NCBI GenBank assembly: GCA_027061805.1
Contig: JAMOWA010000037.1
Coordinates: forward strand, 1 to 44,520
Direction: 5' to 3'
DNA from: Thermoanaerobaculia bacterium
Lineage (GTDB): Bacteria; Acidobacteriota; Thermoanaerobaculia; Thermoanaerobaculales; Sulfomarinibacteraceae
Length of the DNA: 44,520 nt
Under the pieces are notes generated by a model that was not told the origin of the DNA, did not search any database, and saw nothing but the letters and a program-made list of their open reading frames with translations. Below, one piece after another: positions 10,302 to 44,520 of the stretch. The position numbers and the translations under genes are program-made. Positions within the stretch are counted from its first letter, which is position 1. The number at the start of each line of letters is the position of its first letter.

Positions 10302-10329
10302 GGCGCGAGGACCTCCTCCCGTCCCACCG

Positions 10330-15353: not shown

Positions 15354-15807
15354 GATCCCTCCCGGAGCGTCACACGGCGAACCCATCTCATGGTGTCCAA
15401 CATAACGCGGATCGAGGCCCCGGGTCCATGGGGATCCGGCGCAACGATCTGTTCGCCGTCTTCGCCGGGGGAGAGGAGGGCATGGACGGCTCCTGAGCTC
15501 GGCATCACCGTCCTGGTCCCGACCTTGCTGCGCCCGGTCGGGTGGACGGTCACGGACCCCAACCCTGTCACTGTCACGAATCCGCCTGCGGGCACGGGCC
15601 CGGATCCGAGGTCGGGGGTCCGTCCGTGCGGTGGAGGTCGATCCTGGAAGCGCGGACTTCAGACCGCAGGGACCATCATCCGTCCCCGTCCTCGTGCAAC
15701 GCGGGGAAATGCGGGCTGAAACCCGCGCTCCGTGGATCCCGGCCCGAAGGCTGCGAACAGCACAATGCCCCCGGACCCCACCAGGACCCGACATCCCGGA
15801 CGGTTGC
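15354..15807. other. Intergenic region with dispersed-repeat copy 1
   Basis: Between the yhaO start and the MFS stop there is no credible gene. The promoter of yhaO-yhaN should lie near 15354-15450. Short CACGG/GTCACTGTCACG-type repeats occupy about 15535-15600, and the rest is the 175-bp repeat listed separately (15608-15782). Confidence 0.5.
15608..15782 (+). repeat. Dispersed repeat, copy 1 (MITE/BIME-like)
   Basis: This segment aligns end to end, with few indels, to the reverse complement of 27314-27495. Its core (15646-15731) is bounded by an inverted repeat, GGAAGCGCGG and CCGCGCTCC. It holds two small hairpins: GCGGAC-TTCA-GACCGC (one mismatch) and GCGGG-CTGAAA-CCCGC. The conserved internal stretch CAGGGACCATCATCCGTCCCC is also shared. 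It codes for no convincing protein. Confidence 0.75.
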
Positions 15808-27215: not shown

Positions 27216-27621
27216 TCCAACCTCCCGGGCACATCACCGTGCCTGCTCGCGTGACCGCTGGCAGGGGCGCCTCGATTCACCCCAGTCTAGCAGGACTTCT
27301 CCGGCTCTTGCGTGGTGGGTCGGGCCGGAGGTCGTTGCGCCGGTGCGCCGCCTTCGGGCCGGGACCCGTGGAGCGCGGGGTTCAGCCTGCATTTCCCGGA
27401 GTCGCGGGGGGATGGGGACGGATGATGGGCCCTGCGGACAGAGGTCCGCGCTCCAGGGATCGGTCTCCGCGGCGCGGACGGACCTCCGACCTCGAGGCAA
27501 GGCAATCGTCGATGCCATCGCGTCTCCCATGCCCACATGCGTCGGAAACAGCGCAACATCCCTGGCCGGGAGCGGTATGCTGGGGGCCGGAACACACCAG
27601 CAGGACCGGAGGGAGGCCGGC
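27216..27621. other. Intergenic region with dispersed-repeat copy 2
   Basis: This is the divergent gap between the FHA gene and the HExxH gene. It holds the minus-oriented dispersed repeat (27314-27495) and must contain both promoters. No credible gene is seen; the long open frames crossing it are translations of the repeat. Confidence 0.5.
27314..27495 (-). repeat. Dispersed repeat, copy 2 (MITE/BIME-like)
   Basis: This is the inverted copy of 15608-15782. Here the core ends are a perfect nine-base inverted repeat, GGAGCGCGG (27370-27378) and CCGCGCTCC (27446-27454). One internal hairpin is perfect (GCGGAC-CTCT-GTCCGC on the minus strand) where copy 1 has a mismatch, while the second hairpin is better preserved in copy 1. 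Confidence 0.75.
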
Positions 27622-28767
27622 ATGGCGACCGGAGATGGAGGCGGCACTCATGGCGGATCCACCGGACGTTCCGGGACGAATCGGGAGCTGGCGTGCCGGC
27701 TCAAGGGCCCGGGATGGTGGGGTGGGGGGGTGGAGGAGCTTCCAGGGCTGCCGCTCGACGACGAGGTTCACGTGGAAGCGTGGCGTCAGTATGCCGCCGA
27801 GGCGGAGCGGCGCGGAACGTGGTCCGTACTTCGTGAGCGCCTGGTGCAGCTGGCCTTCCCGGTGCGGGAGGGGCAGAGCACGGACGAGGCCTACCGTGCG
27901 GCCACGCTCCGCGGCGTGGAGCCCCCCGGGGGTCCCGGACTCGGCCTCGAACGGCCGGACGAGCTGCGGATCCTGCTGCACGGCACACCGGCCGGCACGG
28001 TTCCGATCCTCGTGGCGGGCTGCCGGGAGGATTTCGTGGCCCTGGTCCGGGCCCTGGTCGGGCGCAACGAGCCCGTGGAGGTGCCGCCGTCCATGGGAGC
28101 CGCGCTGATCAACGGCTACAACAACTGGGACCGCATCCGGGAGCACCGCAGGGCGTGGGAGGCGGCTGATCCGGCCCACCGCGAGCCCGGTGCCTGGGAG
28201 GAGGAGTTCCGCCGGATCGTGCCGCGGAGGGAGCTCTACCGGGACCGGTTCGTCATCCTGAGCCGCGGGCCCTACAGCGGTGTCGCCGCCGCCGACGTGG
28301 GCCTCCACGAGGACGAGTGGCTCGAGGCATCCCTCTCCATCCGCCTGGAGCACGAGTGCACCCACTACCTGGCGTTGCGCGTCTTCGGTGCGCTTCGACA
28401 CGACATCCTGGAGGAGCTCGTGGCCGACTTCGTCGGGATCGTCCGGACCTTCGGTGGGTTCATGCCGGACCTGGCGCGGCTCTTCCTCGGTCTCGAGGCG
28501 TACCCGGAGTTCCGCCCGGGGGGCCGGCTGGAGGTCTACGGGGGAAGTCCGCCCCTGTCCGAAGAGGCCTTCGAGGCCCTCCAGCGCCTGGCGTGGGAGG
28601 GGATCGAGGTTCTGGACACCGTGGCACGGCGGCATCCCGGGTGGCTGGAGTCACCCCTGGAGCTGGGACGCCTTGTTGTGGCGCTCACCACCCTCGGCGC
28701 AGACGAGCTCTCGTTGCCCGGCGGGCCTGCCAGGGTGGAGGAGGCCGTGGAGAGGGTGGGGACGTGA
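27622..28767 (+). CDS. Putative HExxH metallopeptidase-like protein, family not recognised
   Basis: This 381-residue protein is taken from the ATG at 27622 behind GGGAGG; the frame is open further upstream through a dispersed repeat. It has no signal peptide. Residues 244-248 are HECTH inside IRLEHECTHYLALRVFG, a zincin-type HExxH on a helix. ILEELVADFVG about 18 residues later offers Glu264/Glu265 and Asp269 as possible third ligands, as in gluzincins. SMGAALINGYNNWDRI near 157-172 is a striking conserved-looking block. It is convergent with the RiPP export operon; a link to that cluster is unproven. Confidence 0.6.
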   Translation: MATGDGGGTHGGSTGRSGTNRELACRLKGPGWWGGGVEELPGLPLDDEVHVEAWRQYAAEAERRGTWSVLRERLVQLAFPVREGQSTDEAYRAATLRGVEPPGGPGLGLERPDELRILLHGTPAGTVPILVAGCREDFVALVRALVGRNEPVEVPPSMGAALINGYNNWDRIREHRRAWEAADPAHREPGAWEEEFRRIVPRRELYRDRFVILSRGPYSGVAAADVGLHEDEWLEASLSIRLEHECTHYLALRVFGALRHDILEELVADFVGIVRTFGGFMPDLARLFLGLEAYPEFRPGGRLEVYGGSPPLSEEAFEALQRLAWEGIEVLDTVARRHPGWLESPLELGRLVVALTTLGADELSLPGGPARVEEAVERVGT

Positions 28768-29126: not shown

Positions 29127-32100
29127 CTACGCCATCTGGCGGCGTGCCAGGGCCGCGAAGAGGCCATCGAGCTCCATGAGCTCCTCGAAGGTGCCGGACT
29201 CCACCAGGCGGCCCTGGTCCAGGTAGCAGATGCGGTCGGCGTTGGCGATGGTGCTGAGCCTGTGGGCGATGACGATGCGGGTGGCGAAGAGCCGTTCCAT
29301 GGACTCGGTGACGATGGCCTGGGAGCGGTTGTCCAGCGCGCTGGTGGCCTCGTCGAAGAAGAGGATCCGCGGCTTGCGCACCAGGGCGCGGGCGATGAGG
29401 AGTCGCTGGAGCTGCCCGCCGGAGAAGCCGCCGCCACCCTCGCTGACGTAGGTGTGCATGCCCATGGGCAGCTCCTTGATGTCGTCGGCGAGTCCGGCCA
29501 TCCGGGCGGCCTCCCACGCATCCTCGATGGTGAGGTCCGAGGCGCCCACGATGTTCCGGAAGATGTCGGCCGGCAGAACCTTGGCATCCTGGAGGACCAC
29601 GCCGAGTTGCTGGCGGACCTCACGGACGTCCAGGCTTGCCAGGTCCTGACCGTCGTAATAGATGGCGCCACGAGCGGGTGTCTCGAAGCCCAGCATGACC
29701 CGCATGAGCGTGGACTTCCCGGACCCCGAGCTCCCCACGAACGCCACGAACTCGCCCGGCTTGATCTCGAGGGAGATGCCCTGGAGGATCCACGGTCCGT
29801 CCTCGGAGTACCGGAAGTGAACGTTGGCGATCTCGATGGCGCCCCTGAGCGTGCCGGGGTAGGCCTTGGACTCGTCCACCTCCGGCTCGGTGATGATGAT
29901 GGGCTTGAGGCGCTCGAAGACGGGGACGATGCGGAGCAGGTTGAGGGAGGCCTCGCCCAGGGCCTGGATGGCGGAGGAGAAGGCCCCGTACGCCGCGGTG
30001 AACGCGATGAATTCGCCGGTGCTCATGCCGCCGGGACCGCCGCCCCCTCCGGCTTCGGCCGCATGTCGCAGGGCCACCAGGACGTAGAAGATCGCCATGG
30101 ATGACAGGACCGGGAAGCCCGAGACGAACACCGAGACGGCGTTCTGGATCCGGCCGATGGCGAACTCCAGCTTGCGTTGCCGGGAGAACTCCCGGGCCCA
30201 GACCCGGAAGGCGTGGTTTTCCGCCCCCGCGACCCTCAGCTTCGACACGCCTGAGATGAACTGGAGCACCATGCCCGTGATCCGGCCCCTCAGCTGCATG
30301 TGATCCCTCTGGAGGCGGAGCTGGAGGTAGTTGGCGGTGGTGGTGAACCCCACGAAGGCCAGCGTGAGGCCCATGGCCAGCAAGGCCAGGGGTGCGCTGT
30401 ACTTGAACATCAGGAAGACGTAGAAGATCGAGCTCATGGAGCCGAGGATGGCCGAGATGCCCGCCCCGGCGATCAGGTCTCGGATCCGGGCGATGCCACC
30501 GGCACGGTCCGCCAGGTCGCCAGCGGAGAACTGACGGAAGAACGTGGAGGGGAGGTCGAGGAGGCGGTCCCAGAGCGCCGCCTGGATGGAGTAGTCCATC
30601 CGCCCCTGGATCCTGAGGACGGCGATGCTCTGGGTGATCTTGAAGGCGGCGGAGATGAGCGCTGCCAGGAAGAGGCCGGTGGTGTACTGGAGGAGCAGGC
30701 TCCGGTCCGCCTGGGGAATGGCCGTGTCGAAGAGCTTGCCCGTGAAGATGGGTGTCAGTGTGCCAAGGACTCCGAGGGCGATGCCCATGAACATGAGTGT
30801 GACCACGTCGTGCTTGAGGCCGCGGATCCCGAATCGCATCAGGTCCCAGGCCGTCAGCTTGCCTTCGGGGAATGGCCTGTAGAAGGTGACCCCGAAGGGG
30901 GCCAGGGAGGCGACGAGCTCGTCGGTGACGGGCTCCCGCGTCCCGGCCTTCGGGTCCACGCACTCGTAGGAGGTGGGACCGGTGGGGAGAAGGGCCACGG
31001 GGTTGCCGCTGTCGGCACGCCGGCCCAGGAGTGGGCCGGCGTCCAGGTGCCACCACTCCTCCCTCAGGGCGACGGCACGGGTCCGGAAGCGGGAGGCCTT
31101 GGCGATGGCCGCCACCATCCCCTCGAAGGTCCGTTCCCGGGCGCCCTCGGGGTGCTTCCGGGCGGTGATCCCCGTGGCCTCGGCCACCAGGCGGACGGCC
31201 TCGAAGACGGCGTCGTCGGTCCCCGGGACCTGGCGTGCTCCCTGCTTCTCCTTCCCGGCGAGGACGCTGGCCAGGTCCCGGATGGCCTGCAGGCGGGCCG
31301 CGCGGGCGTACTCGGCCTTGGAACGGAGTCGGTTGAGCTCGTCCACGGCCGACAGGCGCTTGTTGATGAACTCGCACCTGCACAGCACATGGTGGAACAC
31401 GTCGAGACCGCGCCAGAAGGCCTCCCGGTCCACCACCTCGCCGGAGGGATGGGGGAGGACGGTGGCACCCTCCCCCCGCGGATCGACCGCGGAGATCCAG
31501 GTGTGGGTGGAGACCGGGAAGAGCACGCGTTCGCCCCGGGCCCGCCGGACCAGGTCACCCAGGCCCATGGCTCCCGTTCCCGGTTGTCCCCCGCCGGCGA
31601 GCTCTTCCAGGTCCAGCTCCTCCATGTCGATGAACAGGAGCTCGCCGGCCTGCGCCTCGATCCAGAGCACCCCCCGGCCGGACAGCGCCCGCTGGCTGGG
31701 AAGCAAGCGTGCGGATTCCGACGGCAGCAGCGAGATCTCCTCCATGGGAGGGGGCACGATGTCCTCGGTGAGGCCGGAGGACAGGGCCGCCACCCAGCGG
31801 TCCACCAGCTCACCGACCTCGGAGGCCAGCCCGGGATACCCGGCCAGTTCCCTGAGTCTCGCGCTGGGAAGTCTCTGCAGCGTGGTCCCGATGCTGCCGA
31901 CGGCCAGGAAACCGGAGCCGCCGGCGAAGAGAGCGGGGTCCATCCCCACCAGGAGTCCCCCCTGCTCCACGGTGACGAAGTGATTCCTGGCCCCCCGGGG
32001 CTCGCCGTCCTCCACGGCCACCGTGAACACCTCCACCTTGCCGCTGGCCACGTACCACACGGAGGTGGGATCCCCCAGCAGGAAGGGACGGTTCCCCGTG

Positions 32101-32621
32101 GCCTCGAAGGCCTCTCCCTCTCGTTCGAAGGCCTCCAGCACCGATCCGGGAGGGGGGCCGGCCGGACGTCGCGGTTCCGGCGGGGCGGCTGGCCTGGGAG
32201 GGGCGGGAGGAGCAGCGGGCGGCGCCGCGGGCCGTCGGGGCCCGGAAGGCCGGCCCGGGGCTGCCGGCTCGCGCTCCCCTGCACCGGAGGGCCGCTGCGG
32301 GGTGGGAAGGCTGAACCTGAACCTGGCGGTGCCCAGGCGGAATTCCTGTCCGTCCTCGAGCATGTGGCGCTCGATCCGGCGATCCCCGATCCAGGTGCCG
32401 TTGGAACTGCCCAGGTCGCGGAGCTCCCACCCCCCCTCCACCTGGCGGATCTCCGCGTGCCGGCGGGAGACGGAGGGATCCCCGAGGACCACGTCGCAGT
32501 CCGGCGAACGTCCGATGACGATGCCACCCGGGTCGAGGGCGAGGACATCGCCCACCCGGGCCGCGTCGGCCGTGGCCAGAACGTGGAGCCGGGGGCGGTC
32601 GGGGGGGGTGTGGCCTTCCAT
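29127..32621 (-). CDS. NHLM-type bacteriocin ABC exporter with fused FHA domain
   Basis: This 1164-residue protein has four parts. An N-terminal FHA domain (about 13-105) carries VIGRSPDCDVVL, VSRRHAEI and SSNGTWIGD. A Pro/Ala/Arg-rich linker (108-160) precedes a cNMP-like beta-barrel and accessory region (about 165-590), as in the ATP-binding component of NHLM bacteriocin systems. An ABC exporter core follows: six helices (about 600-895), Walker A GSSGSGKST at 964-972, FSGGQ at 1067-1071 and Walker B ILFFDEATSALD at 1087-1098. There is no C39 peptidase. It probably works beside or with the peptidase-exporter encoded four bases upstream. The FHA fusion implies control by phosphothreonine binding. 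Confidence 0.88.
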   Translation of the reverse strand: MEGHTPPDRPRLHVLATADAARVGDVLALDPGGIVIGRSPDCDVVLGDPSVSRRHAEIRQVEGGWELRDLGSSNGTWIGDRRIERHMLEDGQEFRLGTARFRFSLPTPQRPSGAGEREPAAPGRPSGPRRPAAPPAAPPAPPRPAAPPEPRRPAGPPPGSVLEAFEREGEAFEATGNRPFLLGDPTSVWYVASGKVEVFTVAVEDGEPRGARNHFVTVEQGGLLVGMDPALFAGGSGFLAVGSIGTTLQRLPSARLRELAGYPGLASEVGELVDRWVAALSSGLTEDIVPPPMEEISLLPSESARLLPSQRALSGRGVLWIEAQAGELLFIDMEELDLEELAGGGQPGTGAMGLGDLVRRARGERVLFPVSTHTWISAVDPRGEGATVLPHPSGEVVDREAFWRGLDVFHHVLCRCEFINKRLSAVDELNRLRSKAEYARAARLQAIRDLASVLAGKEKQGARQVPGTDDAVFEAVRLVAEATGITARKHPEGARERTFEGMVAAIAKASRFRTRAVALREEWWHLDAGPLLGRRADSGNPVALLPTGPTSYECVDPKAGTREPVTDELVASLAPFGVTFYRPFPEGKLTAWDLMRFGIRGLKHDVVTLMFMGIALGVLGTLTPIFTGKLFDTAIPQADRSLLLQYTTGLFLAALISAAFKITQSIAVLRIQGRMDYSIQAALWDRLLDLPSTFFRQFSAGDLADRAGGIARIRDLIAGAGISAILGSMSSIFYVFLMFKYSAPLALLAMGLTLAFVGFTTTANYLQLRLQRDHMQLRGRITGMVLQFISGVSKLRVAGAENHAFRVWAREFSRQRKLEFAIGRIQNAVSVFVSGFPVLSSMAIFYVLVALRHAAEAGGGGGPGGMSTGEFIAFTAAYGAFSSAIQALGEASLNLLRIVPVFERLKPIIITEPEVDESKAYPGTLRGAIEIANVHFRYSEDGPWILQGISLEIKPGEFVAFVGSSGSGKSTLMRVMLGFETPARGAIYYDGQDLASLDVREVRQQLGVVLQDAKVLPADIFRNIVGASDLTIEDAWEAARMAGLADDIKELPMGMHTYVSEGGGGFSGGQLQRLLIARALVRKPRILFFDEATSALDNRSQAIVTESMERLFATRIVIAHRLSTIANADRICYLDQGRLVESGTFEELMELDGLFAALARRQMA

Positions 32622-32625
32622 GCCC

Positions 32626-34851
32626 TCACACCTTGATGAGCTCGGCGTAGGGGCCGGGCACGTCCTTCATCTCGTCGTGGGTGCCGCGCTGCACGATCTT
32701 GCCGCGGTCCAGCACGATGATCTCGTCGGCGTCACGGATGGTGCTGAGCCGGTGGGCCACGATGATGCACGTGCAGCCCCGCCGCCTCAGGCTGTCGTCC
32801 ACCCAGCGCTCGGTGGTGGGGTCCAGGGCGCTGGTGGCCTCATCCAGGATGACGATGGTGGGGTTGCCCACCAGGGCCCTGGCGATCTCCAGCCGCTGGC
32901 GCTGGCCTCCACTGAAGTTGGTCCCGTTCTCGTTGACCTCCGAGTGGTACTTGCCCGTACGGGACTGGACGTCGTCGTCGATGGCGGCATCCCGGCAGGC
33001 CGAGGTCACGGCCTTGATGGGGATGGTGGAATCCCACATGGTGATGTTCTCGTAGATGGTTCCGGCGAAGAGGAAGATCTCCTGGTCCACCACGGCCAGG
33101 GAGTTCCGGATGAGGCTGGCCGGGAGCTCTTCCCGGGGGATGTCGTCGAAGAGGATCTGGCCGCTCCAGGGCCTGTGGAGGCCGGCCACCATGCGGGCGA
33201 TGGTGGACTTGCCGCTCCCGCTCCGTCCCACCAGCGCCACACGCTGGCCCGGCTGGATCACGAGGTTGAAGTCCTCGATGAGCGGCTTGCCCAGCGGGTT
33301 GAAGCCGAAGCAGACGTTCCGGAGCTCCACCTTGCCCGAGAGCTTGAGCTGGCCGTCCGGCCCCGTGGTGATGGAGGGGGCCGAGACCTCGGTGACCTCC
33401 CGGGTGTACTCCTCGTCCATGGGGTACTCGAGGACGTCGTCCAGGCGGTTCATGTCGGCCTCGAGCTCCTGGAGGGTGGCCCCGAAGCTCACGAAGGTGT
33501 TGAGGGGTTTGGTGAAGCTGGCCATGAGGCTCTGGTAGGCCACCAGCATGCCCACGGTGAGCTGCCCGTCCATGACCTTGAGGGAACCCAGGAGGAGGAT
33601 GGTGGCGGTGGTGAGCGTGCTCACCAGGGGCGGCACGGCGTTGACCAGCTGGGTCCACAGGCCCAGCTCCTGCTCGGCCTTGAGGGACTTGGCCTGGTAC
33701 CCGGCCCACCGCGAGAAGAACTCCGATTCCGAGCCCGAGGCCTTCAGGGTGTCGATGATCCTGAGGCCGTTCATGGCGGTTCCGGTGAGCTTCCCGGCCT
33801 CCTGGAGGAGCCTCCGGCTGGCGTCCACGCGCTTGCGCGCCACCAGCTTCACCGCCACGATGTTGGCCATGGCGATGACGATGCAGACCAGCGTCAACCC
33901 GATGTCGTAGAGGAACATGAGCAGCGCGTAGAAGACCACGAGGACGCAGTCGAGGATGGTCGTGGCCAGCTTGCCCGAGACGATCTGGGCCACCTTGTTG
34001 TTGATCTGGACGCGGGAGCCGATCTCCCCGGCGTAGCGCTGGGAGAAGTAGGAGACGGGAAGCCGGAGGATGTGGTTGAAGAAGTCGCTGGACGTGATGA
34101 TGGCCAGCTTGGTCTCCATGCGGAGCAGGTAGTACTCCTGGAGCCAGGTGAGCCCCATCCGGACGAGGGCGGTGAGGCCCATCCCGAAGAGGAGGGGGCG
34201 GATGAAGGACTCGCGTCCCGCCACGAGGTACTCATCGATGAAGACCCGCGAGAAGGTGGGGACGACGAGCCCGGGGATCACCAGGAACAGGCCACACAGC
34301 ACGATGAACAGGAGGGCGGTCTCGTGTCCCTCCAGTCGCCGCTTGAGGGCCGGGATGATGGTGCGTTTCTGTCCACCCTTGACGAAATCGGGACCGGGCT
34401 TGAAGGTGAGCACCACTCCCGAGAAGGAGGCGTCCAGCTCCTCCAGCGTGATGACGCGCGGACCCGTGGCGGGATCGTTGAGGTAGGCCTTGCCGTTCTT
34501 GAACCCCTCCAGCACCAGGAAGTGGTTGAAGTTCCAGAACAGGATGACGGGCAGCTCGATGTCCCAGAGCCGATCCAGGTCGTACTTGTAGCCCTTGGCC
34601 TCGAGCCCGTACTTCCGGGCCGCCTTGAGCACGTTGGAGGCCTTGCTCCCATCGCGGGAGACCCCGCACTCCACCCTGAGCTCCTCCAGGGGAACCCACC
34701 GCCCCCAGTAGGCGAGGATCATGGCCAGGGCGGCGGCGCCGCATTCCACGGCCTCCATCTGGAGGATGGTGGGCACCTTGGCCCGGCGGTTCTTCACCTT
34801 CGGGTAGGTGGTGGGTTCGAGCGCCTGATCCTGATCGTTGGCCATCGTCAC
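32626..34851 (-). CDS. NHLM-type peptidase-containing ABC exporter (C39)
   Basis: This 741-residue protein cuts double-glycine leaders and exports the product. The C39 peptidase (about 20-150) has Cys37 in EAVECGAAAL, His110 in NFNHFLVLEG and Asp126 in YLNDPATGP, the complete catalytic set. Six membrane helices (about 175-440) and the ATPase follow, with GRSGSGKST near 541-549, FSGGQ near 645-649 and VILDEATSALD. The start is either the GTG at 34851, directly after the HlyD stop, or the ATG six bases on. The expected substrate is the GG precursor at the window's right end. Confidence 0.93.
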   Translation of the reverse strand: MTMANDQDQALEPTTYPKVKNRRAKVPTILQMEAVECGAAALAMILAYWGRWVPLEELRVECGVSRDGSKASNVLKAARKYGLEAKGYKYDLDRLWDIELPVILFWNFNHFLVLEGFKNGKAYLNDPATGPRVITLEELDASFSGVVLTFKPGPDFVKGGQKRTIIPALKRRLEGHETALLFIVLCGLFLVIPGLVVPTFSRVFIDEYLVAGRESFIRPLLFGMGLTALVRMGLTWLQEYYLLRMETKLAIITSSDFFNHILRLPVSYFSQRYAGEIGSRVQINNKVAQIVSGKLATTILDCVLVVFYALLMFLYDIGLTLVCIVIAMANIVAVKLVARKRVDASRRLLQEAGKLTGTAMNGLRIIDTLKASGSESEFFSRWAGYQAKSLKAEQELGLWTQLVNAVPPLVSTLTTATILLLGSLKVMDGQLTVGMLVAYQSLMASFTKPLNTFVSFGATLQELEADMNRLDDVLEYPMDEEYTREVTEVSAPSITTGPDGQLKLSGKVELRNVCFGFNPLGKPLIEDFNLVIQPGQRVALVGRSGSGKSTIARMVAGLHRPWSGQILFDDIPREELPASLIRNSLAVVDQEIFLFAGTIYENITMWDSTIPIKAVTSACRDAAIDDDVQSRTGKYHSEVNENGTNFSGGQRQRLEIARALVGNPTIVILDEATSALDPTTERWVDDSLRRRGCTCIIVAHRLSTIRDADEIIVLDRGKIVQRGTHDEMKDVPGPYAELIKV

Positions 34852-36000
34852 CTAGCTCAGTCCGAGGGTTCTACGGAAGATCGGGAGCACGTACGAGATG
34901 GGCCGTTTCTTCTCCACGGTCACGTTCCCCGTGCAGATGGTTCCGCTGAAGACCTTCATGGGTGGTCCCTTGGAGGAGGACCACGCGAAACCGCTGGGGG
35001 TGGTGGGATCCAGGAGGAGCTCCACCGCCACCTCGATGGGAGCGGTCTTGCCCGTCAGCTCCTGGATGAGCTTCTCGTTGCGGAGCACGCGGCGCAGGCC
35101 CTCGGGGGTGACGGGGTAGTCCGAGACCGTCTCGACCCTGCCGAGCATGAAGCCGTACTCCTCCGGCCGCACGGTGGTGGGGGAGACGTAGACCTCCATG
35201 CCGGGCCGGACCTTCTTCCCCTCGGCAGCGGGGATGTAGATGATGGCCTTGATGGGCTTCTCGGCGGATTCCAGCGTCACGAGACGGCTGCCTGCGCGGA
35301 CCTGGTCCCCGGCCTCCACGGCGACCTCCACCACGCGTCCCGAGAAGGGGCTGACGATGTTGGAGGTGGCCTCCAGCTCGTTCTCCAGCTCCTTGAGCTG
35401 CTGGCGCACGTCCTCGACGCGGTTGCCCACCCCTGCCTGCTGGGCCTGGAGCTGGGCGATGTTCTGTTCCACGGCGGTGAGCTCCGCCCGCGTTCGCATG
35501 AGCGTGGTGTTGGTGAGCAGACCCTTGGCCACCATCTCCTCCTGGGTGGCGATCTTCCTGCGGAGCTCCGTGGCCTGGGACCGGTACCGGGAGAGGAGGC
35601 GCCGCTGGGCCGAGGTCTGGCGGCTTCCCTGGCTCTCCAGCCGGGCGAGGTCGTCGCGGGTGTTCTGGATCTTCAGGCGGAGGGCGGGACGGTCGAGACG
35701 AGCGATGACGGTACCCTTCTCGATGAAGTCCCCGGGACGGACGAGGACCTCGGAGAGCCGCCCGCTGGTGGTGCTCGTGATGTCCAGCACCGACTCGCCG
35801 CGGATCAGCATGCCCTTCCCCGTGACCTTGATGGAGATGGTTCCCACCACGCTCCAGACGATGATCGCGAGGAGGAGGCAGCCGATGGCGCCCAGCGCCA
35901 GCCACCCCGCGGGGGAGGTGATGTGCATGAGCTCGTCGAGTCGCTCCGGTGAGGAGAGTTTCTCGAGCGCCGCCTTGCGGAAGAGCTTGCTGGGATCCAT
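34852..36000 (-). CDS. HlyD-family periplasmic adaptor of the NHLM export system
   Basis: This 382-residue protein is started here at MDPSKLFRKAAL (ATG complement of 35998-36000); an upstream frame would overlap the TolC gene. A short cytoplasmic part is followed by one membrane helix (GWLALGAIGCLLLAIIVWSVVG). Next come a lipoyl/barrel half (GESVLDITSTTSGRLSEVLVRPGDFIEKG), a long alpha-hairpin (about 125-220), the second lipoyl half (VSPFSGRVVEVAVEAGDQVRAG) and a beta-barrel. It should bridge the inner-membrane exporters to the TolC proteins. It is adjacent to, and stops on, the C39 exporter start. Confidence 0.88.
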   Translation of the reverse strand: MDPSKLFRKAALEKLSSPERLDELMHITSPAGWLALGAIGCLLLAIIVWSVVGTISIKVTGKGMLIRGESVLDITSTTSGRLSEVLVRPGDFIEKGTVIARLDRPALRLKIQNTRDDLARLESQGSRQTSAQRRLLSRYRSQATELRRKIATQEEMVAKGLLTNTTLMRTRAELTAVEQNIAQLQAQQAGVGNRVEDVRQQLKELENELEATSNIVSPFSGRVVEVAVEAGDQVRAGSRLVTLESAEKPIKAIIYIPAAEGKKVRPGMEVYVSPTTVRPEEYGFMLGRVETVSDYPVTPEGLRRVLRNEKLIQELTGKTAPIEVAVELLLDPTTPSGFAWSSSKGPPMKVFSGTICTGNVTVEKKRPISYVLPIFRRTLGLS

Positions 36001-36031
36001 GAGTAGTTTTCCCCGGCCTGTCAGCCTGTGC

Positions 36032-38029
36032 TCATGATGTGACCCCCCCGGCCACATCGAGGTCCGAGAGGTGGAGCCCCTCCACGATCACGTGCCCCTC
36101 GTCGATCCGGAGATCGACCAGCGTTCCGGTCTCGAAGCGGAGCCGTGTCAGCAGGGATGCCATGTTCTGGCGTGCGCCCACCAGGAGGATTTCCTGCTGA
36201 ACCTGTTGCTCCTGGGTCAGGATGAGGTCGATGGCGGTGCTTTCACCCGCCTCGAACCTCTGGATCTCGGCATCGAGCGCGGCGTTCTGCCGTTCCAGAC
36301 CCCGGGCCCTCTTGAGGACCTCGGCCATGGCCTTCTGGAGCGAGACGGCCAGGTCCTCCACGGTGTTGAGGATGGTCCTCTCCAGATCGCGCCGCTGGAT
36401 CCGCCCCTGTTCCTCCAGGGACCGGGCCTGCATGAAGCGGCCCTGTGCCACCCTGTTGGCGAAGGGGAGCTCGAAGTCCAGCACCACGCGGAAGCTCGGC
36501 CCCGCTGCGAAGTCGGTGATGGCGTTGCCCCAGCCCTTGAAGAAATCGGTGGCCTGGGTGATGTCGCCCCCCTCCTCGAGGCCGGCGTACGCGAAACCGA
36601 GCTGGAGATCCACCCGCCGCTTGAGGTCGAAGCGGGCGGCCTCCGACAGGATCCTCGAGGCCTCCAGACGGTCGGCGGCCGCTGCGAGGTCGTAGCGGCG
36701 TTCCAGGGCCATCCGCCCGAGCTCGCCGGGGTCCCAGGCCGGGATCTCGAAGTCCGGCGGGAGCATGGGGAGAGCGTCGGCCGCCAGCGGCGCCTGTTCG
36801 ATGTCGGAGACCTCGACGCCCATGGCGTCGGCCAGGGACACGCGGGCGCTGATCACGCCCTGCCGTGCCGCGGCCACGGAGCCGCGGGTCCGCTCGAGCC
36901 TGGCCCTCACGAAGTCGAGGTCGGCTCTCGGGAGCTCGTCCGCGGCCACCAGGGACTTCGCCATCTCCAGCAACCGTTGCTCCAGGGCCTCGGACGCCTC
37001 GAGGAGGTGGAGGCGTTCCTGGGCCGCCGCGAGGCTCCAGTAGGCGAGGGCGACGGCCTGGACCTGTGCAGCGATGGTGTGGGCCTCGCTCTCGAGGGCT
37101 GCCCTGGCGCTCGCCTGCGCCGCCCGCTCGGGGGCTCCGGTGGACACGGTGCCCCGCCCCTTGCCCAGGGGAATATCGAGGGTGAGCCCGAGGACCGACC
37201 GGACCGTGTCGGGGATCCCCTTGCCCCCGTAGCTGGGACTCCGGGGCTTGCCGTGGTAGTTGTCCTGGACCGAGGTCAGCATGACGGTGGGCTGCAGGAG
37301 CATGCCGTTGCGGAAGAGCTTGGCCAGCCGGAGGTCGAGGGAGACCGTCAGGGTGTCGTTGAGGGTGGGGATCATCCCCATCTTCCGGAGGTTCTCCCGC
37401 TGGGTGTAGGCGGTGATGTTGAGGATGTCCACGATGTTGGCGGCCTCCCGGCGGTTGGCTTCGACGAGGGCGGCCGCGATGTCCTCGGCTCCGGAGGCCT
37501 CGGCGAGGGACAGGAACAGCTCCATGTTGGCCTGCTGTCTGGCGGAGATGCAGATGGGCCGGTTCCCGATGGTGAGGTCGAATCCCCGTCCGCAGTCGGC
37601 GAAGACGAAGCCCTCCTCGCTCTCGTTCAGCTGGCGCTCCAGGTCATCGGCCACGCTCTGGAGGTTCTCGGCGAGGATCCGGAACAGGTCCCTCTTCTGC
37701 TTCTCGGCGTCGAGCTGGGCCTGGGTGAGGTGGATCCGGTTGTACTCGGCGGAGAAGATCATGCCCAGGCCGAGGTCGAAGGGGCCCGTGTTCTGCCGGA
37801 GCAGGCCCTCGGAGGCCAGGGTGTTCTCGCGGGCCAGCTGGATGGTGGGGTTCCGGGAGAGCGCGATGCGGGCCGCGTCCGGGAGTGCGATGGCCCCGCC
37901 GGATGCGGCCTGTTCCTGTCGGGCCGGCTCGGCTTCCTGAGCGGCTGGTGTGGCGATCGGCGTCAGGACCAGACCCGCCGCGAGGAGGCCCGCCGGCAGG
38001 CAACGGAGCGGTGGAGGCATGGTGCGCAT
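36032..38029 (-). CDS. TolC-family outer-membrane factor, copy 1
   Basis: This 665-residue protein has a signal peptide (PPPLRCLPAGLLAAGLVLTPIATPAAQ). Two outer-membrane-efflux repeats follow, with typical long helices (ALAYWSLAAAQERLHLLEASEALEQRLLEMAKSLVAADELPRADLDFVRARLERTRG; second half EQGRIQRRDLERTILNTVEDLAVSLQ). It is longer than E. coli TolC (about 490) because of an insert at roughly residues 90-230. It lies between the second TolC and the HlyD adaptor, so it is the likely outer-membrane channel of the RiPP exporter. Confidence 0.85.
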   Translation of the reverse strand: MRTMPPPLRCLPAGLLAAGLVLTPIATPAAQEAEPARQEQAASGGAIALPDAARIALSRNPTIQLARENTLASEGLLRQNTGPFDLGLGMIFSAEYNRIHLTQAQLDAEKQKRDLFRILAENLQSVADDLERQLNESEEGFVFADCGRGFDLTIGNRPICISARQQANMELFLSLAEASGAEDIAAALVEANRREAANIVDILNITAYTQRENLRKMGMIPTLNDTLTVSLDLRLAKLFRNGMLLQPTVMLTSVQDNYHGKPRSPSYGGKGIPDTVRSVLGLTLDIPLGKGRGTVSTGAPERAAQASARAALESEAHTIAAQVQAVALAYWSLAAAQERLHLLEASEALEQRLLEMAKSLVAADELPRADLDFVRARLERTRGSVAAARQGVISARVSLADAMGVEVSDIEQAPLAADALPMLPPDFEIPAWDPGELGRMALERRYDLAAAADRLEASRILSEAARFDLKRRVDLQLGFAYAGLEEGGDITQATDFFKGWGNAITDFAAGPSFRVVLDFELPFANRVAQGRFMQARSLEEQGRIQRRDLERTILNTVEDLAVSLQKAMAEVLKRARGLERQNAALDAEIQRFEAGESTAIDLILTQEQQVQQEILLVGARQNMASLLTRLRFETGTLVDLRIDEGHVIVEGLHLSDLDVAGGVTS

Positions 38030-38042
38030 GGTCCACCTCCCC

Positions 38043-40016
38043 TCAATCCACCCGGGGCGGCGTGACGAGGTCGGCAGCGGCGATGGAACCGCTTCCTCCC
38101 GCCTCGGTGAGCAGCGTGCCCGTCTCGTAGCGGAGACGTGCCAGGAGCCTGGCGTAGGTCGCCTCGGCAGCCACGAGGGACAGCTGGGCCGTGAGCTGGC
38201 GCTGCTCGGTGGTGATCGTGTCGATCACCGTCGAGGCCGAGAGACGCAGACGCTCCATCTCGGTCTCCACGGCGCGTCCGTAGGCTTCCACGGCGGCCCT
38301 GTAGCGCGCCACCTGACGGGCCGCCTCGCCGAGAGTGCGGGCCGCCTCCACGACATTGAGCCCGATGAGCCGTTCCAGGTTGGCGTTGGAGATCCGGGCC
38401 TGTCGGTAGAGGGCCTCCTGCTGGGCGAGGCGGCCCTCCTGGATGTTGTTGGCGAAGGGGTAGTCCACGTTGAGGGCGATCCGGCCGCTGGGTCCCGCCC
38501 AGTCCCCGGTCAGCGAGTCCTTGATGCCGGTGCCGGCGGCGTAGCTCTCGCCCAGACCGCTGGCCGAGACCTCCAGCTCCAGGTCGAACACCCGCCTGAG
38601 ATCCAGGAGGGCCGCACGGCTGAGCACCTTCCCGGAGCTCTCGAGGAGCCGGGATGCCCTCAGGTCGAGGCGGCGCTCCAGGGCCACGGAAACCAGGGGC
38701 TGCGGGGAGAGTGACCGCAAGAGGTCGTCGCCGGGAAGAGCGGGGAAGCCGTCGGAGGCCAGCGGGGCGATCCCCTCGCCCCGAAGCTCGAGGCCGATGG
38801 CGTTGGCCAGCGCGATCCGGGCCGTCTGCAGACGCCGCCTGGCCGCCTCCACACCGGCCTCGACCTCGGCGACCCGGGCCTCGGTGCGGGCCAGCTCCGA
38901 CCTCGGGATCTCGTCGGCGTCGATGAGCGTCCGGGTGGTCTCGAGGATCTTCCGGTTCAGCTCGAGCGAGGTCTCCAGCACCTGGAGGCTCTCCTGGGCG
39001 GCCACCACGTCCCAGTACGCCAGCAGCGTGGTGTAGGCGTTGAAGGACACGGCGTGGGCGAGGGCCGCCTCGCTGGCCTCGTGGTCGATCTGTGCCGCAC
39101 GCTCCCTCGCGCCGGTGGACTCCACGCCCCGTCCGCGGCCGAGGGGGATGAGGACCCGGAAGCCCAGGGTGGAGGTGTAGGCATCGATCACCCCCATCCC
39201 CCCGTCGTCCACGTCATGTTTCTTGCCCTTGTAGTTGGCGCCGGTGCCCGTGAGATCGTAGAAGGCCGAGATCGAGATGCCACTCCGGAACTGCCTGTCG
39301 AGACTCAGGTTGAAGTTGGCGTTGAAGCTCTGGATCACGTCGGGCACGTCGCCGAGCCGGTCCAGCTTGCCGGAGAGATCACTCTCGGTCTCCAGTGCCT
39401 GGGCAAGCCCCTCCTCGACGGCCTGGGCCTGCCTGTCGAGGAACTCGAGGATGGCGTCGCGGAAGGCGTCCTTCTGGTCCTCCGGTGCTGTCTCGTACAT
39501 CTGGATGAGGAGCTCGTACTGTGCCTGGGCGATGGGATCCGTGAAGCCCACGGAGCCGGGGTCGCCGCCGGATTCCCAGACGTCCCGGACGTCGTTGAGC
39601 TCGCCGAGGCTCCTCTGGTACTCCTCGATGGCGTTGCGCGCGGTGTCGAGCCGATCGGCGAGGTCGTCCCTCCGCTTCTGCTCCGCCTTCTTCTCCTTGG
39701 CGGTGAGCCGGCTCTGGGTGTACTCGTAGGAGAGCCCGCCGTAGAGGGTGGTGTCGAACTGGCCGGTGGCCTCGGTGGCGAGTCCCAGCCTGAACATCGT
39801 GTTCTCCTCCTGGAGCCGGATGTTGGGCTGGTGTTCCAGGGTCATCTTCACGGCGTCCAGGGCCGAGATGGTCCCCGTGGTGACGATCCCGGGCTCCCAG
39901 ACCCGGGCCTGTCCGGTGACGGGAGTGCTCTCCCCGGCCACCAGGGGCATGGCAAGCCCGAACAGAGTCACTGCGAACGCTGCCAATACGATGGTGATCG
40001 TCGTGCCTGGCTTCAT
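38043..40016 (-). CDS. TolC-family outer-membrane factor, copy 2
   Basis: This 657-residue protein has a signal peptide (ITIVLAAFAVTLFGLAMPLVAG). It shares the architecture of copy 1, including matching segments such as TLEHQPNIRLQEENTMFRLGL against LSRNPTIQLARENTLASEGLL, GRGRGVESTGARERAAQ against GKGRGTVSTGAPERAAQ, and LIDADEIPRSELARTEARVAE. It has a similar mid insert rich in Lys/Glu/Arg. It overlaps the GNAT gene by ATGA. The paralogues are clearly diverged, which suggests two roles (for example a mixed trimer or two exporters) rather than a recent duplication. Confidence 0.85.
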   Translation of the reverse strand: MKPGTTITIVLAAFAVTLFGLAMPLVAGESTPVTGQARVWEPGIVTTGTISALDAVKMTLEHQPNIRLQEENTMFRLGLATEATGQFDTTLYGGLSYEYTQSRLTAKEKKAEQKRRDDLADRLDTARNAIEEYQRSLGELNDVRDVWESGGDPGSVGFTDPIAQAQYELLIQMYETAPEDQKDAFRDAILEFLDRQAQAVEEGLAQALETESDLSGKLDRLGDVPDVIQSFNANFNLSLDRQFRSGISISAFYDLTGTGANYKGKKHDVDDGGMGVIDAYTSTLGFRVLIPLGRGRGVESTGARERAAQIDHEASEAALAHAVSFNAYTTLLAYWDVVAAQESLQVLETSLELNRKILETTRTLIDADEIPRSELARTEARVAEVEAGVEAARRRLQTARIALANAIGLELRGEGIAPLASDGFPALPGDDLLRSLSPQPLVSVALERRLDLRASRLLESSGKVLSRAALLDLRRVFDLELEVSASGLGESYAAGTGIKDSLTGDWAGPSGRIALNVDYPFANNIQEGRLAQQEALYRQARISNANLERLIGLNVVEAARTLGEAARQVARYRAAVEAYGRAVETEMERLRLSASTVIDTITTEQRQLTAQLSLVAAEATYARLLARLRYETGTLLTEAGGSGSIAAADLVTPPRVD

Positions 40017-41074
40017 GGCTCCTCCTCCTTCGGATCGGCCCCTGCCGGTGTTCCCTGCCCGTGGCCAGCGGAACCCTGGTGGTCCCCGTCATCTCGCTGG
40101 CCGGTTCCGGACCGGGAGTGATCGTGGTCCTCACTCCCCACCTGGGGGAGGGTCAGTTTCTTCGAGGTGCCCCGCGTCTCGGCCGTGAGACCCACGTGGG
40201 GCGCGCACCTCCGGCGCACGAAGGCCACCATGGCCGGATGGTGGGCGGGGGCGACCAGCGTGCCGGTGGTGAAGGACGTACCCTTCATGCGGCGCAGGGA
40301 CTCGGCGTACAGGGTGATGAGCAGGCCCCTCCGCCCGAGCTCGGGGTGGATGAAGCTGCAGGTGTAGCGCAGGAAGTGGGGCCCCAGGGCGTGGTTGATG
40401 ATCCAGCCCACGATGGCGCCGTGCCTCCGGAGGGCCATGCTCGTCACGGGCTCGAAGCCGTCCGCCTCGAAGTCCCACGGCCGCAGGTCCTCCGCGATCC
40501 AGCCGGTGACCGCGTCCGAGGCCTTCAGAGCGGCCTTCTCGGTGTCGGTCACCTCCGCCCATGGGATCGCCTCGAAACCGGGACGGACCCTGAGGCGCAT
40601 CCAGGGAATCCGGTCCAGGTCCTCCACCGAGAAGCGGACCAGCACCGTCCGTAGGGTGGGCTGATCCCAGCCCAGCCGGGTGAAGATCCGTTCCACAGCC
40701 GTGGTGGAGGCCTTGCCCGTGGTGTACACGGCCCTGATCCGCTCGAAGCCGCGCCGTGCCACCTCGCGCTCGGTGGCGGCGGTGAGGAGTGTGCCGAGGC
40801 CCTGGCCGCGAAGGGAGGGCGACACCCACAGGGACAGGAGCTCCGGATCACGGCCCGACTCGACCGGAAGCTCCGACAGGGCCAGGCCAGCCGGTCGATC
40901 CCCCACGAAGAGGCCGATGGCCAGGGGTTGGATCCGGGGAGCGTTCCGTGCGTCTTCGTGCCGGGTCGTCGGGGTGAGCGCGAGGAGATGGCGGTAGGCC
41001 GGGAAGGTCATCTCCCTGAAGGGCTCGCCCTCTCCGGGCTCCAGGACACCGAGCTGGGGATCCACGGGGCTCAT
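40013..41074 (-). CDS. Two-domain GNAT acyltransferase of the RiPP cluster
   Basis: This 353-residue protein has an N-terminal GNAT domain with the acyl-CoA pyrophosphate loop VSPSLRGQGLGTLL (about 84-97) and the characteristic YTTGKASTTAVERIFTRLGW. The second half (about 195-300) reads as a GNAT too (IHPELGRRGLLITLYAESL). Residues 311-353 are a His/Asp/Gly-rich tail. GNAT enzymes of this look occur in NHLP/Nif11 RiPP clusters; in selidamide pathways such enzymes attach fatty acyl groups to Lys or Orn side chains. Acylation of the core here (Lys1 or Lys12) is an inference. Overlaps on both sides fix it in the operon. Confidence 0.78.
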   Translation of the reverse strand: MSPVDPQLGVLEPGEGEPFREMTFPAYRHLLALTPTTRHEDARNAPRIQPLAIGLFVGDRPAGLALSELPVESGRDPELLSLWVSPSLRGQGLGTLLTAATEREVARRGFERIRAVYTTGKASTTAVERIFTRLGWDQPTLRTVLVRFSVEDLDRIPWMRLRVRPGFEAIPWAEVTDTEKAALKASDAVTGWIAEDLRPWDFEADGFEPVTSMALRRHGAIVGWIINHALGPHFLRYTCSFIHPELGRRGLLITLYAESLRRMKGTSFTTGTLVAPAHHPAMVAFVRRRCAPHVGLTAETRGTSKKLTLPQVGSEDHDHSRSGTGQRDDGDHQGSAGHGQGTPAGADPKEEEP

Positions 41075-44000
41075 GCGGGCCTCCGTCGGGTCGGGGGGCG
41101 GAAGGACAGGACCGACGGAAGCTCTCCGGGCCTGGCCATCCGGAGGCAGGCGTGGCCGATGCCTGCAAGGCCCTGGAAGAATCCGGGTGGCTCGGACGAG
41201 GCACCTCCCCCTCGTCCCAGTGCGAAGCGACCCCGTTCAAGGTTCTGCCGCATCACCCCTCCCATCATCGCCTCCGCTGCCGCGATCAACTCCGGGCGGT
41301 GGCGGAGGAGGCCTGCTTCCAGCACGATATCTGTGCGCCCGAGGGTACCACAACAGAGGTGGTGGGGACCACTGGAAGGCGTCCCGAGTGTTGTCTCCAA
41401 CGCGACCTCGAGCTCCCGGGCCACGTGCTCTCCGGATTCGATGGCCATGAGCTCCAGCCGGGCGAGGGCGATGCCGGGGGCGCCGTGACACCACGCCGTC
41501 ATGGGGATCCTTCGTGGTGGCTCGCCGGTTTCCGTGTCCACGACGAGGGGCCAGTTGCGGGATTCCGGGTCGAAGACCGTCCGCTCGAAGGCCAGACCCT
41601 CCCGGATCGACTCCAGGAGCCGCCGGTCCGGTCTGTGCCGCTGAAGGCGTGCCAGCGCCGTGACGATGCCGCTGGCGCCGTGGGCGAATCCGGCGACGGG
41701 GCGATCGTGGATCGTGGGCCAGCCACCGGCCTCCTCGCCCGAATGGACCTGCCGCTGCACGAGGTGCTCTGCGCAGATGCCAGCCCGGTCGAGGAGCCAC
41801 TCCTCCCCGGTGAGCTCGTGGAGACCGGCCAGGGCCAGGAGGGCACCGGCCGAACCGGCGACCACGTCGAGCCTCCGGTCCTCCCGGATCCTGCCGGGCT
41901 CCAGCAGGCGGGCCACCCGGGAGGCCTTCTCCACGAGTGCCGGTTCACCGAGGAGATGGCCCGCCAGGCCCAGCGTGTGGACGAGGCCCCCGAGGCCGCT
42001 GCAGATGCCGATGGTCTCGTTCTCGAGAAAGGACCGGTACCGTGGCTTCTCCAGAAGGGGCCCCACGAAGTCCAGGCTCCGGTGTGCCAGCTCCTTCCAG
42101 CGGTCCTCCCCGGTGACCCGGGCCAGGGAGGCGAACAGGAGTGCGGGGCCACACGCCCCGTCGTAGAGCGCATGGGGGATGCCGCCGGTCTCCAGGACGC
42201 GCCCCGGCACCAGCCAGGTCAGTGCACCGTCCTTCCCCACGACGGCCAGCTCTTCGAGCCGGGAACCGATGCTGCACGCGACCTCGAGCAGCACGGTCGG
42301 GGACACGCCGGGGGAGGGGGTGGGGGAGTCCGTTGCGGGGGCGGGGGCTTCCTCCGGGACCGCGTGACCGGGCGGCTCCAGGATCATCTCGAGGATGCGG
42401 ACCTGCCGGTCCAGGTCGCGGTCGTCCAGGGCGGCCAGACGGTGACGGAAGGCCTCCATGCCGGAGAGGTCCAGGGTGCCGTCCAGGGGCCGTCCCCCAC
42501 CGTCCGGGATCGCCTCCGCCTCCACAGGCACGGTGAACCGCGGCAGGTCCAGCCCCTCCAGTGCCCGGCGTTCCACGGAGACCAGGGGCCAGACGGGCGG
42601 CGGATCCGGGAGACGAAGTAGGGGGCGGTTCAGCGACTCCAGCAGCAGGCTGGCTGCGAGGGAATCCTTCTGGTACCGGGGTTGGAGCATGCTGCGCAGC
42701 ACGAGGACGTAGAGATGGCTGGGCCGGAACACGACGCGCGTGGAGAGGCCCTCCAGGGCGGGCACGAAGCCACCACCCTCCAGGAGTTCGTCCCGGGAGC
42801 GCATGAAGATCCGGTAGGCGGCCTCGAAGCCATCGCGGAGTGCTTCCACGTGGCCGGAGGGATCCACCGGCTCGCCATCGACGCAGAGAACGTTGGCGCC
42901 CCGGGGAGCGACGGCGTTCTCCTCCCTGACATCGAGCCGGTCCGTCCCGATGCCGGTCCACCTGCGGCGTCCGGTGGCGAGGCGGTACCCCCCCCGGCCC
43001 AGGATTCCCCCGATCTCCACCGGCGTGCTGCCGGGTCTCTCCTGCCGGAAGCTCAGAAGGCCCGTGGCCAGGAATGAACGCTGGAGCGCCGACCGGAACG
43101 GGTCGTCCTCCCGGGACGTTCCGGTTCCTGCGGCGGGGTGCCGCAGCGCCGGCTGGAGCAGGGTCTCGAGGTCCACCACCACCGGCCCCTCCCCGGTGGC
43201 GACGACGTTGTCCATGTGGAGGTCCGTGGCACCGAGGACATGGGTCACGCAGAGGAGTGCCCCGGCCCGACGGAACCACCGGTCGAGGGACTCCCGGTCC
43301 CCGGGCTCCCCGGGCCGGACGTACTCCATCCAGCCGTACGACCCCCGCGGGAGGGCCCGTACCGCACGGGGCACCGGGTCCAGCCCGTGGGTCTCGAGCC
43401 AGGCCAGGACCTGCGGCAGTGCGGCCTCCGCGTCCACGGCCCGTGGCTTGTAGACCACCCGGAGACCCGATTCGAACTCCAGGATGGCGACCCGCCGGCC
43501 GCCGGCGTGACGGTCGGACAGGCCGGCCTCCACGTGGCGGATCCTGCCGGGAGTGTGGCCGTCCGAGAGCTCGCGGGCCAAGAGCTCCCTGTCGGCATGG
43601 ATCCTCTCGAGCATCTCGGCCGTGGAGGCGATCCAGGTGTCCAGCACCCTGCACAGCTGGCGCGCGAGGGCGGGGTACTCCTCGAAGAGTGGGAGCAGCC
43701 CGCGGCGCAGCTGGTGCTCCACGAAGGCACCATAGGCTCCGTTCCGGCTTCCACCCGTTCCTCCACGGAACTGCTCGAAAGCGGCCATCGCGCACAGATC
43801 GGAGACCTGGTGCACAAGGTGCCGCGCGAGATCCCCCATGGCCGCTCGCGCGAGCAGGGGAAAACCGCTGGTACAGGCCTTTCCGAGTCCCTCCAGGGCG
43901 AAGGTGGCCACTCTGGCCCAGATCTCGAAGAATGGCAGCTCACGTTCCAGGCCCAGCTCCTGGACCACCGGGGACGTCACTGTCGACGGATCCCCCACGA

Positions 44001-44388
44001 ATGTCACGAGAGCCTCGAGCCGCTCCAGCCATTCCATGCCCGGAGCACCCCGGGGCGCGTCGGTACCGAGCGAGGTCGCCAGGACCTCCCGGGTGTCCTC
44101 CGGTGTCAACCCGTCCCAGGCCAGGCGCCGTCCGAGCGCGACTGATCCTCCCACTGCCTTCTGCCACCGCTCGAGGAGCCCGAGCGTCCGATCGGTATCG
44201 GGACGGGGGTGCCCGGACCGGTCACCTCCAGGGGCGAGGTGCTCGGCCAGGGTCCTGGCCCTCGATACGACGCCACGGAGGGGGTGCTCAGCCGGGCGGG
44301 GCCCGTTTCCGGAGGGGGAACCATGGCCACCCGCCCCCGGTGGACGGGTGGCCCGGACGTGCGAACCGAGTTTGGTGCGTTCTGGCAC
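41071..44388 (-). CDS. lanM: Class II lanthipeptide synthetase LanM, CCG type
   Basis: This 1105-residue bifunctional enzyme starts at a GTG (complement of 44386-44388), 15 bases after the precursor stop. The dehydratase (DUF4135) region, about 190-600, shows VYKPR (312-316), ATDLHMDN (387-394) and VVDLETL (404-410), the kinase-like sites for phosphorylating Ser/Thr. The LanC-like cyclase, about 730-1090, has GFAHGASG (His903), WCHGAPG (Cys967) and LCCG (Cys1012, Cys1013). The last makes a three-Cys zinc site as in ProcM rather than the usual Cys-His. It should install dehydro-residues and thioether rings on the adjacent peptide. Confidence 0.93.
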   Translation of the reverse strand: MPERTKLGSHVRATRPPGAGGHGSPSGNGPRPAEHPLRGVVSRARTLAEHLAPGGDRSGHPRPDTDRTLGLLERWQKAVGGSVALGRRLAWDGLTPEDTREVLATSLGTDAPRGAPGMEWLERLEALVTFVGDPSTVTSPVVQELGLERELPFFEIWARVATFALEGLGKACTSGFPLLARAAMGDLARHLVHQVSDLCAMAAFEQFRGGTGGSRNGAYGAFVEHQLRRGLLPLFEEYPALARQLCRVLDTWIASTAEMLERIHADRELLARELSDGHTPGRIRHVEAGLSDRHAGGRRVAILEFESGLRVVYKPRAVDAEAALPQVLAWLETHGLDPVPRAVRALPRGSYGWMEYVRPGEPGDRESLDRWFRRAGALLCVTHVLGATDLHMDNVVATGEGPVVVDLETLLQPALRHPAAGTGTSREDDPFRSALQRSFLATGLLSFRQERPGSTPVEIGGILGRGGYRLATGRRRWTGIGTDRLDVREENAVAPRGANVLCVDGEPVDPSGHVEALRDGFEAAYRIFMRSRDELLEGGGFVPALEGLSTRVVFRPSHLYVLVLRSMLQPRYQKDSLAASLLLESLNRPLLRLPDPPPVWPLVSVERRALEGLDLPRFTVPVEAEAIPDGGGRPLDGTLDLSGMEAFRHRLAALDDRDLDRQVRILEMILEPPGHAVPEEAPAPATDSPTPSPGVSPTVLLEVACSIGSRLEELAVVGKDGALTWLVPGRVLETGGIPHALYDGACGPALLFASLARVTGEDRWKELAHRSLDFVGPLLEKPRYRSFLENETIGICSGLGGLVHTLGLAGHLLGEPALVEKASRVARLLEPGRIREDRRLDVVAGSAGALLALAGLHELTGEEWLLDRAGICAEHLVQRQVHSGEEAGGWPTIHDRPVAGFAHGASGIVTALARLQRHRPDRRLLESIREGLAFERTVFDPESRNWPLVVDTETGEPPRRIPMTAWCHGAPGIALARLELMAIESGEHVARELEVALETTLGTPSSGPHHLCCGTLGRTDIVLEAGLLRHRPELIAAAEAMMGGVMRQNLERGRFALGRGGGASSEPPGFFQGLAGIGHACLRMARPGELPSVLSFRPPTRRRPA

Positions 44389-44403
44389 GGGTTTCAGCAG
44401 GAG

Positions 44404-44520
44404 TCAGAAGACACCCATGTCGGTTGTGATCTCCACGTGGGTGCCGATGCCCTTGATGTCGTTGCAGGTGTACTCGGTCTCGCCCTTGCCGCCGGCGACC
44501 ATCTCGAGGTCGGCGTCGGA
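44404..44520 (-). CDS. Lanthipeptide precursor with NHLP-like double-glycine leader (3' part only)
   Basis: This frame is visible only as 38 C-terminal residues ending at the TGA (complement of 44404-44406); the start lies beyond the window. The leader end SDADLEMVAGG matches the LExVAGG cleavage site of nitrile-hydratase-type and Nif11-type leaders. The remaining core is 27 residues (KGETEYTCNDIKGIG... ending TTDMGVF) with one Cys (position 8), five Thr (4, 7, 16, 21, 22) and no Ser. At most one methyllanthionine ring can form. It is 15 bases upstream of lanM, in the same operon, with the C39 exporter as the obvious protease. Confidence 0.85.
   Translation of the reverse strand, partial: SDADLEMVAGGKGETEYTCNDIKGIGTHVEITTDMGVF

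Follow-up and report, generated by a model that had tools for sequence, protein, structure and literature searches.

A conserved operon of Thermoanaerobaculia predicted to make and secrete a lipidated, single-ring class II lanthipeptide

The operon described here makes and secretes, in our reading (to which we give a probability of roughly 0.6), a class II lanthipeptide of the selidamide/nostolysamide type, with a single ring and a lipid chain; it lies at one end of a 44,520-nucleotide stretch of DNA (‘the window’). The window corresponds to the whole of contig C37 in a draft genome of 3.1 Mb and 96.9% completeness. Working from promoter to export, the locus's own sigma-54 activator would fire a sigma-54 promoter before each precursor gene, with a neighbouring cNMP-FHA protein possibly exerting some influence; LanM would bind the nitrile-hydratase-like leader, Thr16 of the core being dehydrated and Cys8 then added to it, giving one methyllanthionine ring; a tandem GNAT would acylate the side chain of Lys1, most likely with a long chain; the C39 domain of the first ABC exporter (ABC1) would cleave after Gly-Gly; and the product would cross both membranes via ABC1 and a second exporter (ABC2), HlyD and a pair of TolC proteins. 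In the same scheme, the FHA domain of ABC2 would couple export to a phospho-threonine signal, and a DUF7005 protein would act as an accessory, metallopeptidase-like component of the export module.

All of the operon genes lie on the minus strand. Starting at the contig end, we see the C-terminal 38 residues of a precursor with an NHLP leader (44407–44520; the end of the leader, GG and the core), whose gene is cut by that end, and then a run of seven consecutive genes (29127–44388) that overlap by 4–26 nt or are separated by gaps of 0–13 nt: LanM, the class II lanthipeptide synthetase (41071–44388); a predicted tandem-GNAT acyltransferase (40013–41074); a conserved pair of TolC-like outer-membrane channels, TolC1 (38043–40016) and TolC2 (36032–38029); an NHLM HlyD-type periplasmic adaptor (34852–36057); NHLM ABC1, a C39 peptidase-ABC exporter expected to cut after GG (32626–34851); and NHLM ABC2, with its N-terminal FHA domain (29127–32621). 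The gene for the DUF7005 protein (27616–28767, plus strand) is convergent to the operon. Curated models score above cut-off for LanM (TIGR03897, 685.2 bits), HlyD (TIGR03794, 361.7), ABC1 (TIGR03796, 1120.8) and ABC2 (TIGR03797, 914.6), with Pfam matches to FHA, to C39, to OEP in both TolCs and to Acetyltransf_1 in the GNAT, such that the names given to the parts in the original prediction stand; so too do its argument for co-expression from gene overlaps and near contacts, and its proposal of a diderm route from modification to outer-membrane exit. An uninterrupted minus-strand operon, as it was then described, is what we find for the seven touching genes from LanM to ABC2, but the precursor is present only as its C-terminal residues; nor is the operon ‘complete’, as the window is a whole contig and the leader and a second precursor sit at the start of another, C12. 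The arrangement is conserved in Thermoanaerobaculia (149 genomes of the class) and its gene order, repeated in many of them, is beyond chance; single contigs of relatives carry sigma-54 activator, precursor, LanM, GNAT, TolC, TolC, HlyD, ABC1 and ABC2. Elsewhere in the window, an open frame of 1150 residues (10606–14058, minus strand), with no Pfam match, adjoins an ABC ATPase (8641–10476) and a metallophosphatase (14055–15794).

The remnant on C37 reads SDADLEMVAGG followed by KGETEYTCNDIKGIGTHVEITTDMGVF. At the start of C12 (C12:1–1018; locus L005) there are two NHLP precursors, one of them truncated and the other complete, scoring 72.0 and 71.9 bits against TIGR03793 (cut-off 50.9), each with a nitrile-hydratase-like leader ending in GG; on the strength of that leader, the earlier label of ‘NHLM-type lanthipeptide’ was correct. 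The ends of C37 and C12 have 91 identical bases in common and C12 opens within a 127-base exact repeat, which indicates that the assembly broke where near-identical precursor genes lie; we infer that the two contigs adjoin, with support from relatives that have this order of genes on one contig, and the locus likely holds two or more precursors. An RNA hairpin between the precursor stop and LanM was no more stable than shuffled sequences (z -0.81) and we therefore make no claim for an attenuator. In a further locus (L099, 17367–18964, minus strand), a LanM is accompanied by a tandem of three precursors whose long cores are rich in Gly (FLGGILGGGFLPGG...), and a GNAT was not found within the locus.

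Upstream of the precursors on C12 lies the gene for a sigma-54 activator (L005, 1237–2553, minus strand), with that for a cNMP-FHA protein divergent from it (L005, 2445–3329, plus strand); rpoN is present in the genome, and near-consensus TGGCAC-N5-TTGC sites are found 92 nt ahead of both precursor starts. A scan of 26 loci, some of them redundant, returned 15 matches to the sigma-54-type pattern in 636 kb (counting both strands), 14 of which fall 67–130 nt ahead of the start of a precursor; no match to the pattern used was seen in several loci (e.g. L072, L091, L093 and L098–L100) or in some families of the class.

LanM is the only such protein in the genome. It combines a DUF4135 dehydratase with a LANC_like cyclase (Pfam), its zinc motif is of the CCG-type (WCHGAPG ... 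LCCG) and the conserved dehydratase motifs are kept. Cleavage of its predicted substrate after GG would release the core KGETEYTCNDIKGIGTHVEITTDMGVL/F. In an alignment of 20 cores (precursor-like matches in L095, with odd frames after the leader, being left out), every one has exactly one Cys, and every one an aligned Ser/Thr, mostly Thr, located 7–12 residues after it and often then followed by x-V/I-E and ASLF. Ser/Thr residues also precede the Cys in most cores, which is the classical ring geometry of lanthipeptides and would allow an otherwise unchanged pathway to close a conventional ring from Thr4 or Thr7 to Cys8, with the conserved downstream Thr just dehydrated, or retained otherwise. 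These preceding residues, however, occupy no fixed position, whereas the downstream one is aligned throughout; moreover, in the core of G134 the single Ser/Thr in all is a Thr after the Cys, hence any LanM ring there must be Cys-first. NpuM, a ProcM-clade enzyme and so of related type, makes Cys-first rings, for example Cys5–Thr9 (PMC13060382). Taking the aligned downstream residue, the G134 core and the NpuM precedent together, we predict that the core carries one ‘reverse’ thioether ring, a Cys8–Thr16 methyllanthionine with Cys upstream of Thr, and regard the conventional ring as doubtful, even if Thr4 or Thr7 could be the partner in this species.

The GNAT-family maturase is encoded with the precursor and conserved beside LanM, a feature of selidamide genes. 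Homologues are found in 10/37 genomes of the order and 22/149 of the class; a LanM match accompanies them in all but one of these 22, the exception (G069) being a fragmented draft. Our model of the protein is a tandem GNAT (mean pLDDT 84.9), with the tandem GNATs 2wpw and 5kf2 as its best neighbours in the PDB (Z about 18, rmsd 4.6–4.8, about 278 residues); searching PDB sequences with a profile of the GNAT gave generic GNATs only. The P-loop, RGQGLG, is found in the N-terminal domain only, which is also where NpuN is reported to have it; in the alignment, D196 and H279 fall on the residues proposed to be catalytic in that enzyme (numbering uncertain by one). By sequence, the protein is homologous to cyanobacterial GNATs adjoining NpuA-like precursors (35% to that of Nostoc FACHB-152); in the Nostoc NpuA-like core, Ser4, Cys5, Thr9, Thr12, Cys14, Ser18, Cys20, Ser23 and Cys25 match the positions given in the nostolysamide paper. 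The acidobacterial GNATs nevertheless form their own clade (100/99), one member of which is labelled Deltaproteobacteria, apart from those of the cyanobacterial nostolysamide-type.

The predicted core starts with Lys1, as in nostolysamide, where NpuN acylates this residue (PMC13060382). Lys occurs within core positions 1–5 in 18 of 19 cores from GNAT genomes and in none of the 6 that have no linked GNAT, although the corresponding Fisher test (p = 4e-5) is overstated, as related genomes do not supply independent cores. Since the sequences are related and in some draft genomes the precursor and the GNAT sit on separate contigs, we treat the apparent tracking of GNAT by a Lys close to the core N-terminus as supportive of acylation at this site rather than as proof. 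We rejected a strict requirement for Lys1, as the Lys is at positions 2–4 in several GNAT loci and is absent from 1–5 in one (G023, core FLDTYKC). The GNAT might instead only acetylate, adding a protection or self-immunity tag and no fatty acyl chain; the tandem GNATs closest to it in fold (2wpw, 5kf2 and MshD) are known acetyltransferases, and NpuN also accepts acetyl-CoA in vitro (PMC13060382). By sequence, on the other hand, the GNAT is related to selidamide-type enzymes, which attach long chains in cells, and we therefore consider acetylation alone unlikely and long-chain acylation the probable activity.

Genera g13 and g16 of the class encode short, divergent LanMs of about 930–970 aa (L056 4206–7004; L057 4464–7274; L059 12632–15433; L060 12145–15054), in which part of the dehydratase domain is missing and the zinc ligands are kept; these possibly represent a separate LanM sub-type. 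Such short proteins, together with the presence of just one Cys in the core, might suggest that the operon has stopped making a lanthipeptide, with LanM or the GNAT vestigial and the exporter serving an NHLP peptide that is unmodified or carries other modifications, but this is highly improbable given that even alongside divergent LanMs the single Cys persists, as do zinc ligands and conserved dehydratase motifs, and that the reading frames of the window are intact.

Turning to the export module of the preferred, lipidated-lanthipeptide pathway, the FHA domain occupies residues 34–97 of ABC2 (Pfam), and the middle region of the same protein looks, by eye, like degenerate cNMP-type domains; the C39 and ABC ATPase catalytic motifs, similarly read by eye, are intact. 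The TolC pair is conserved with the operon, set against one TolC in the other NHLM loci of the class that were read. In one relative (G036; L057 8213–10177, plus strand), the first TolC is split into two frames of 307 and 347 aa, through either a frameshift or an assembly error. Fusion of an FHA domain to ABC2 is not unique to the source genome, a possibility we rejected on finding it in a sub-clade of exporters within the class and in 4/18 further loci sampled across the phylum, one of those four from the same order. An FHA-ABC exporter is also known elsewhere, in the form of Rv1747 from Mycobacterium. Downstream of the operon, the window encodes a further FHA protein near the FHA-ABC exporter: a coiled-coil-like protein with the FHA domain at its C-terminus (26121–27215, minus strand).

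The DUF7005 protein scores 391 bits against PF22541; it has no NCBIfam name, and we found no paper under the name DUF7005. The family is present in nine genomes of the order, all GNAT-positive, and across the class in 32/35 genomes with an NHLM ABC2 above cut-off, as against 5/114 without, some of these five being drafts in which a contig stops within the operon. In 12 genomes ABC2 is followed, on the same strand and within 225 nt, by DUF7005 as the next match, and the family is also found in three cyanobacterial GNAT loci (L078, L084 and L086). As judged from this co-occurrence, DUF7005 belongs to the operon's system; it also appears alongside exporters in genomes lacking a LanM match (G096, G097 and G144), which ties it to export rather than to LanM. 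An HExxH motif, and a Glu 17 residues past its second His, are invariant in 33 sequences (H244, E245, H248 and E265, in the numbering of the 381-residue protein). The model is confident (pLDDT 93.4), yet Foldseek returned no match for it at E<=0.001, and the best rows from VIA-align, to M36 and M3-type peptidases, are weak (Z no higher than 4.4; rmsd 4.7 over 179 aligned positions). In peptide pathways, a protein with HExxH can also turn out to be an alpha-ketoglutarate-dependent oxygenase (PMC12636437), and a peptidase is for this reason a lead and not a result. Our tentative proposal, to which we would give somewhat less than even odds, is that DUF7005 represents an unrecognised family of HExxH metalloenzymes, either second-step leader peptidases or peptide-tailoring enzymes, forming a general extra of NHLM export in Acidobacteriota and Cyanobacteria, and that the FHA-ABC2 makes secretion of the lipidated lanthipeptide responsive to threonine phosphorylation. 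DUF7005 is a concrete candidate for a missing step of a widespread export system.

The original prediction held this combination of genes not to be known as a described system. For its core this no longer applies: LanM, an acyl-GNAT, an NHLP/Nif11 precursor and a C39 exporter have been described together for the selidamides and nostolysamides (PMC13060382, PMC9505594), and the core combination is therefore not new. We did not, however, find a description in the literature of the acidobacterial package: control by sigma-54, the TolC pair, an ABC2 fused to FHA, cores with one Cys, and DUF7005. HlyD, C39-ABC and a second ABC (TIGR03794/03796/03797) are those of the NHLM export system (Haft 2010, PMC2887384), the text of that paper being without FHA or TolC, whereas here an FHA domain on ABC2 and two TolCs are part of the operon. 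The tha and the clusters, from the same bacterial class, are likewise class II LanM clusters, but differ in a core rich in Cys (ThaA) and in a GMC oxidoreductase that forms thiazoles, with no GNAT in the text (PMC13083261). For phaeornamide, a selidamide, the pha cluster shares an NHLP precursor, LanM, GNAT and three transporter genes, and the product has one MeLan ring; it differs in having a peptide arginase and a hydroxylase, with acylation on hydroxyornithine (PMC9505594). Genes for these two enzymes are absent from the operon's seven and from the neighbouring C12 genes that we examined.

With the nostolysamides (npu cluster, Nostoc punctiforme; PMC13060382) the operon has in common the GG leader end, a CCG/ProcM-type LanM, the C39 exporter, Lys1 of the core and a clearly homologous tandem GNAT with its P-loop in the N-terminal domain. 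The predicted product is nonetheless not a nostolysamide proper: in place of a Nif11 leader and a multi-Cys core with four rings, we see an NHLP leader and one Cys, hence one predicted ring, and to this the operon adds the twin TolC, FHA-ABC2 and sigma-54 activator, with its GNAT in the separate acidobacterial clade. Lipidated ribosomal peptides are few, and nostolysamide, which kills yeasts and bacteria, is the one relative to have been well studied; the much smaller, one-ring acidobacterial cores would offer a minimal system in which to ask what the lipid does.
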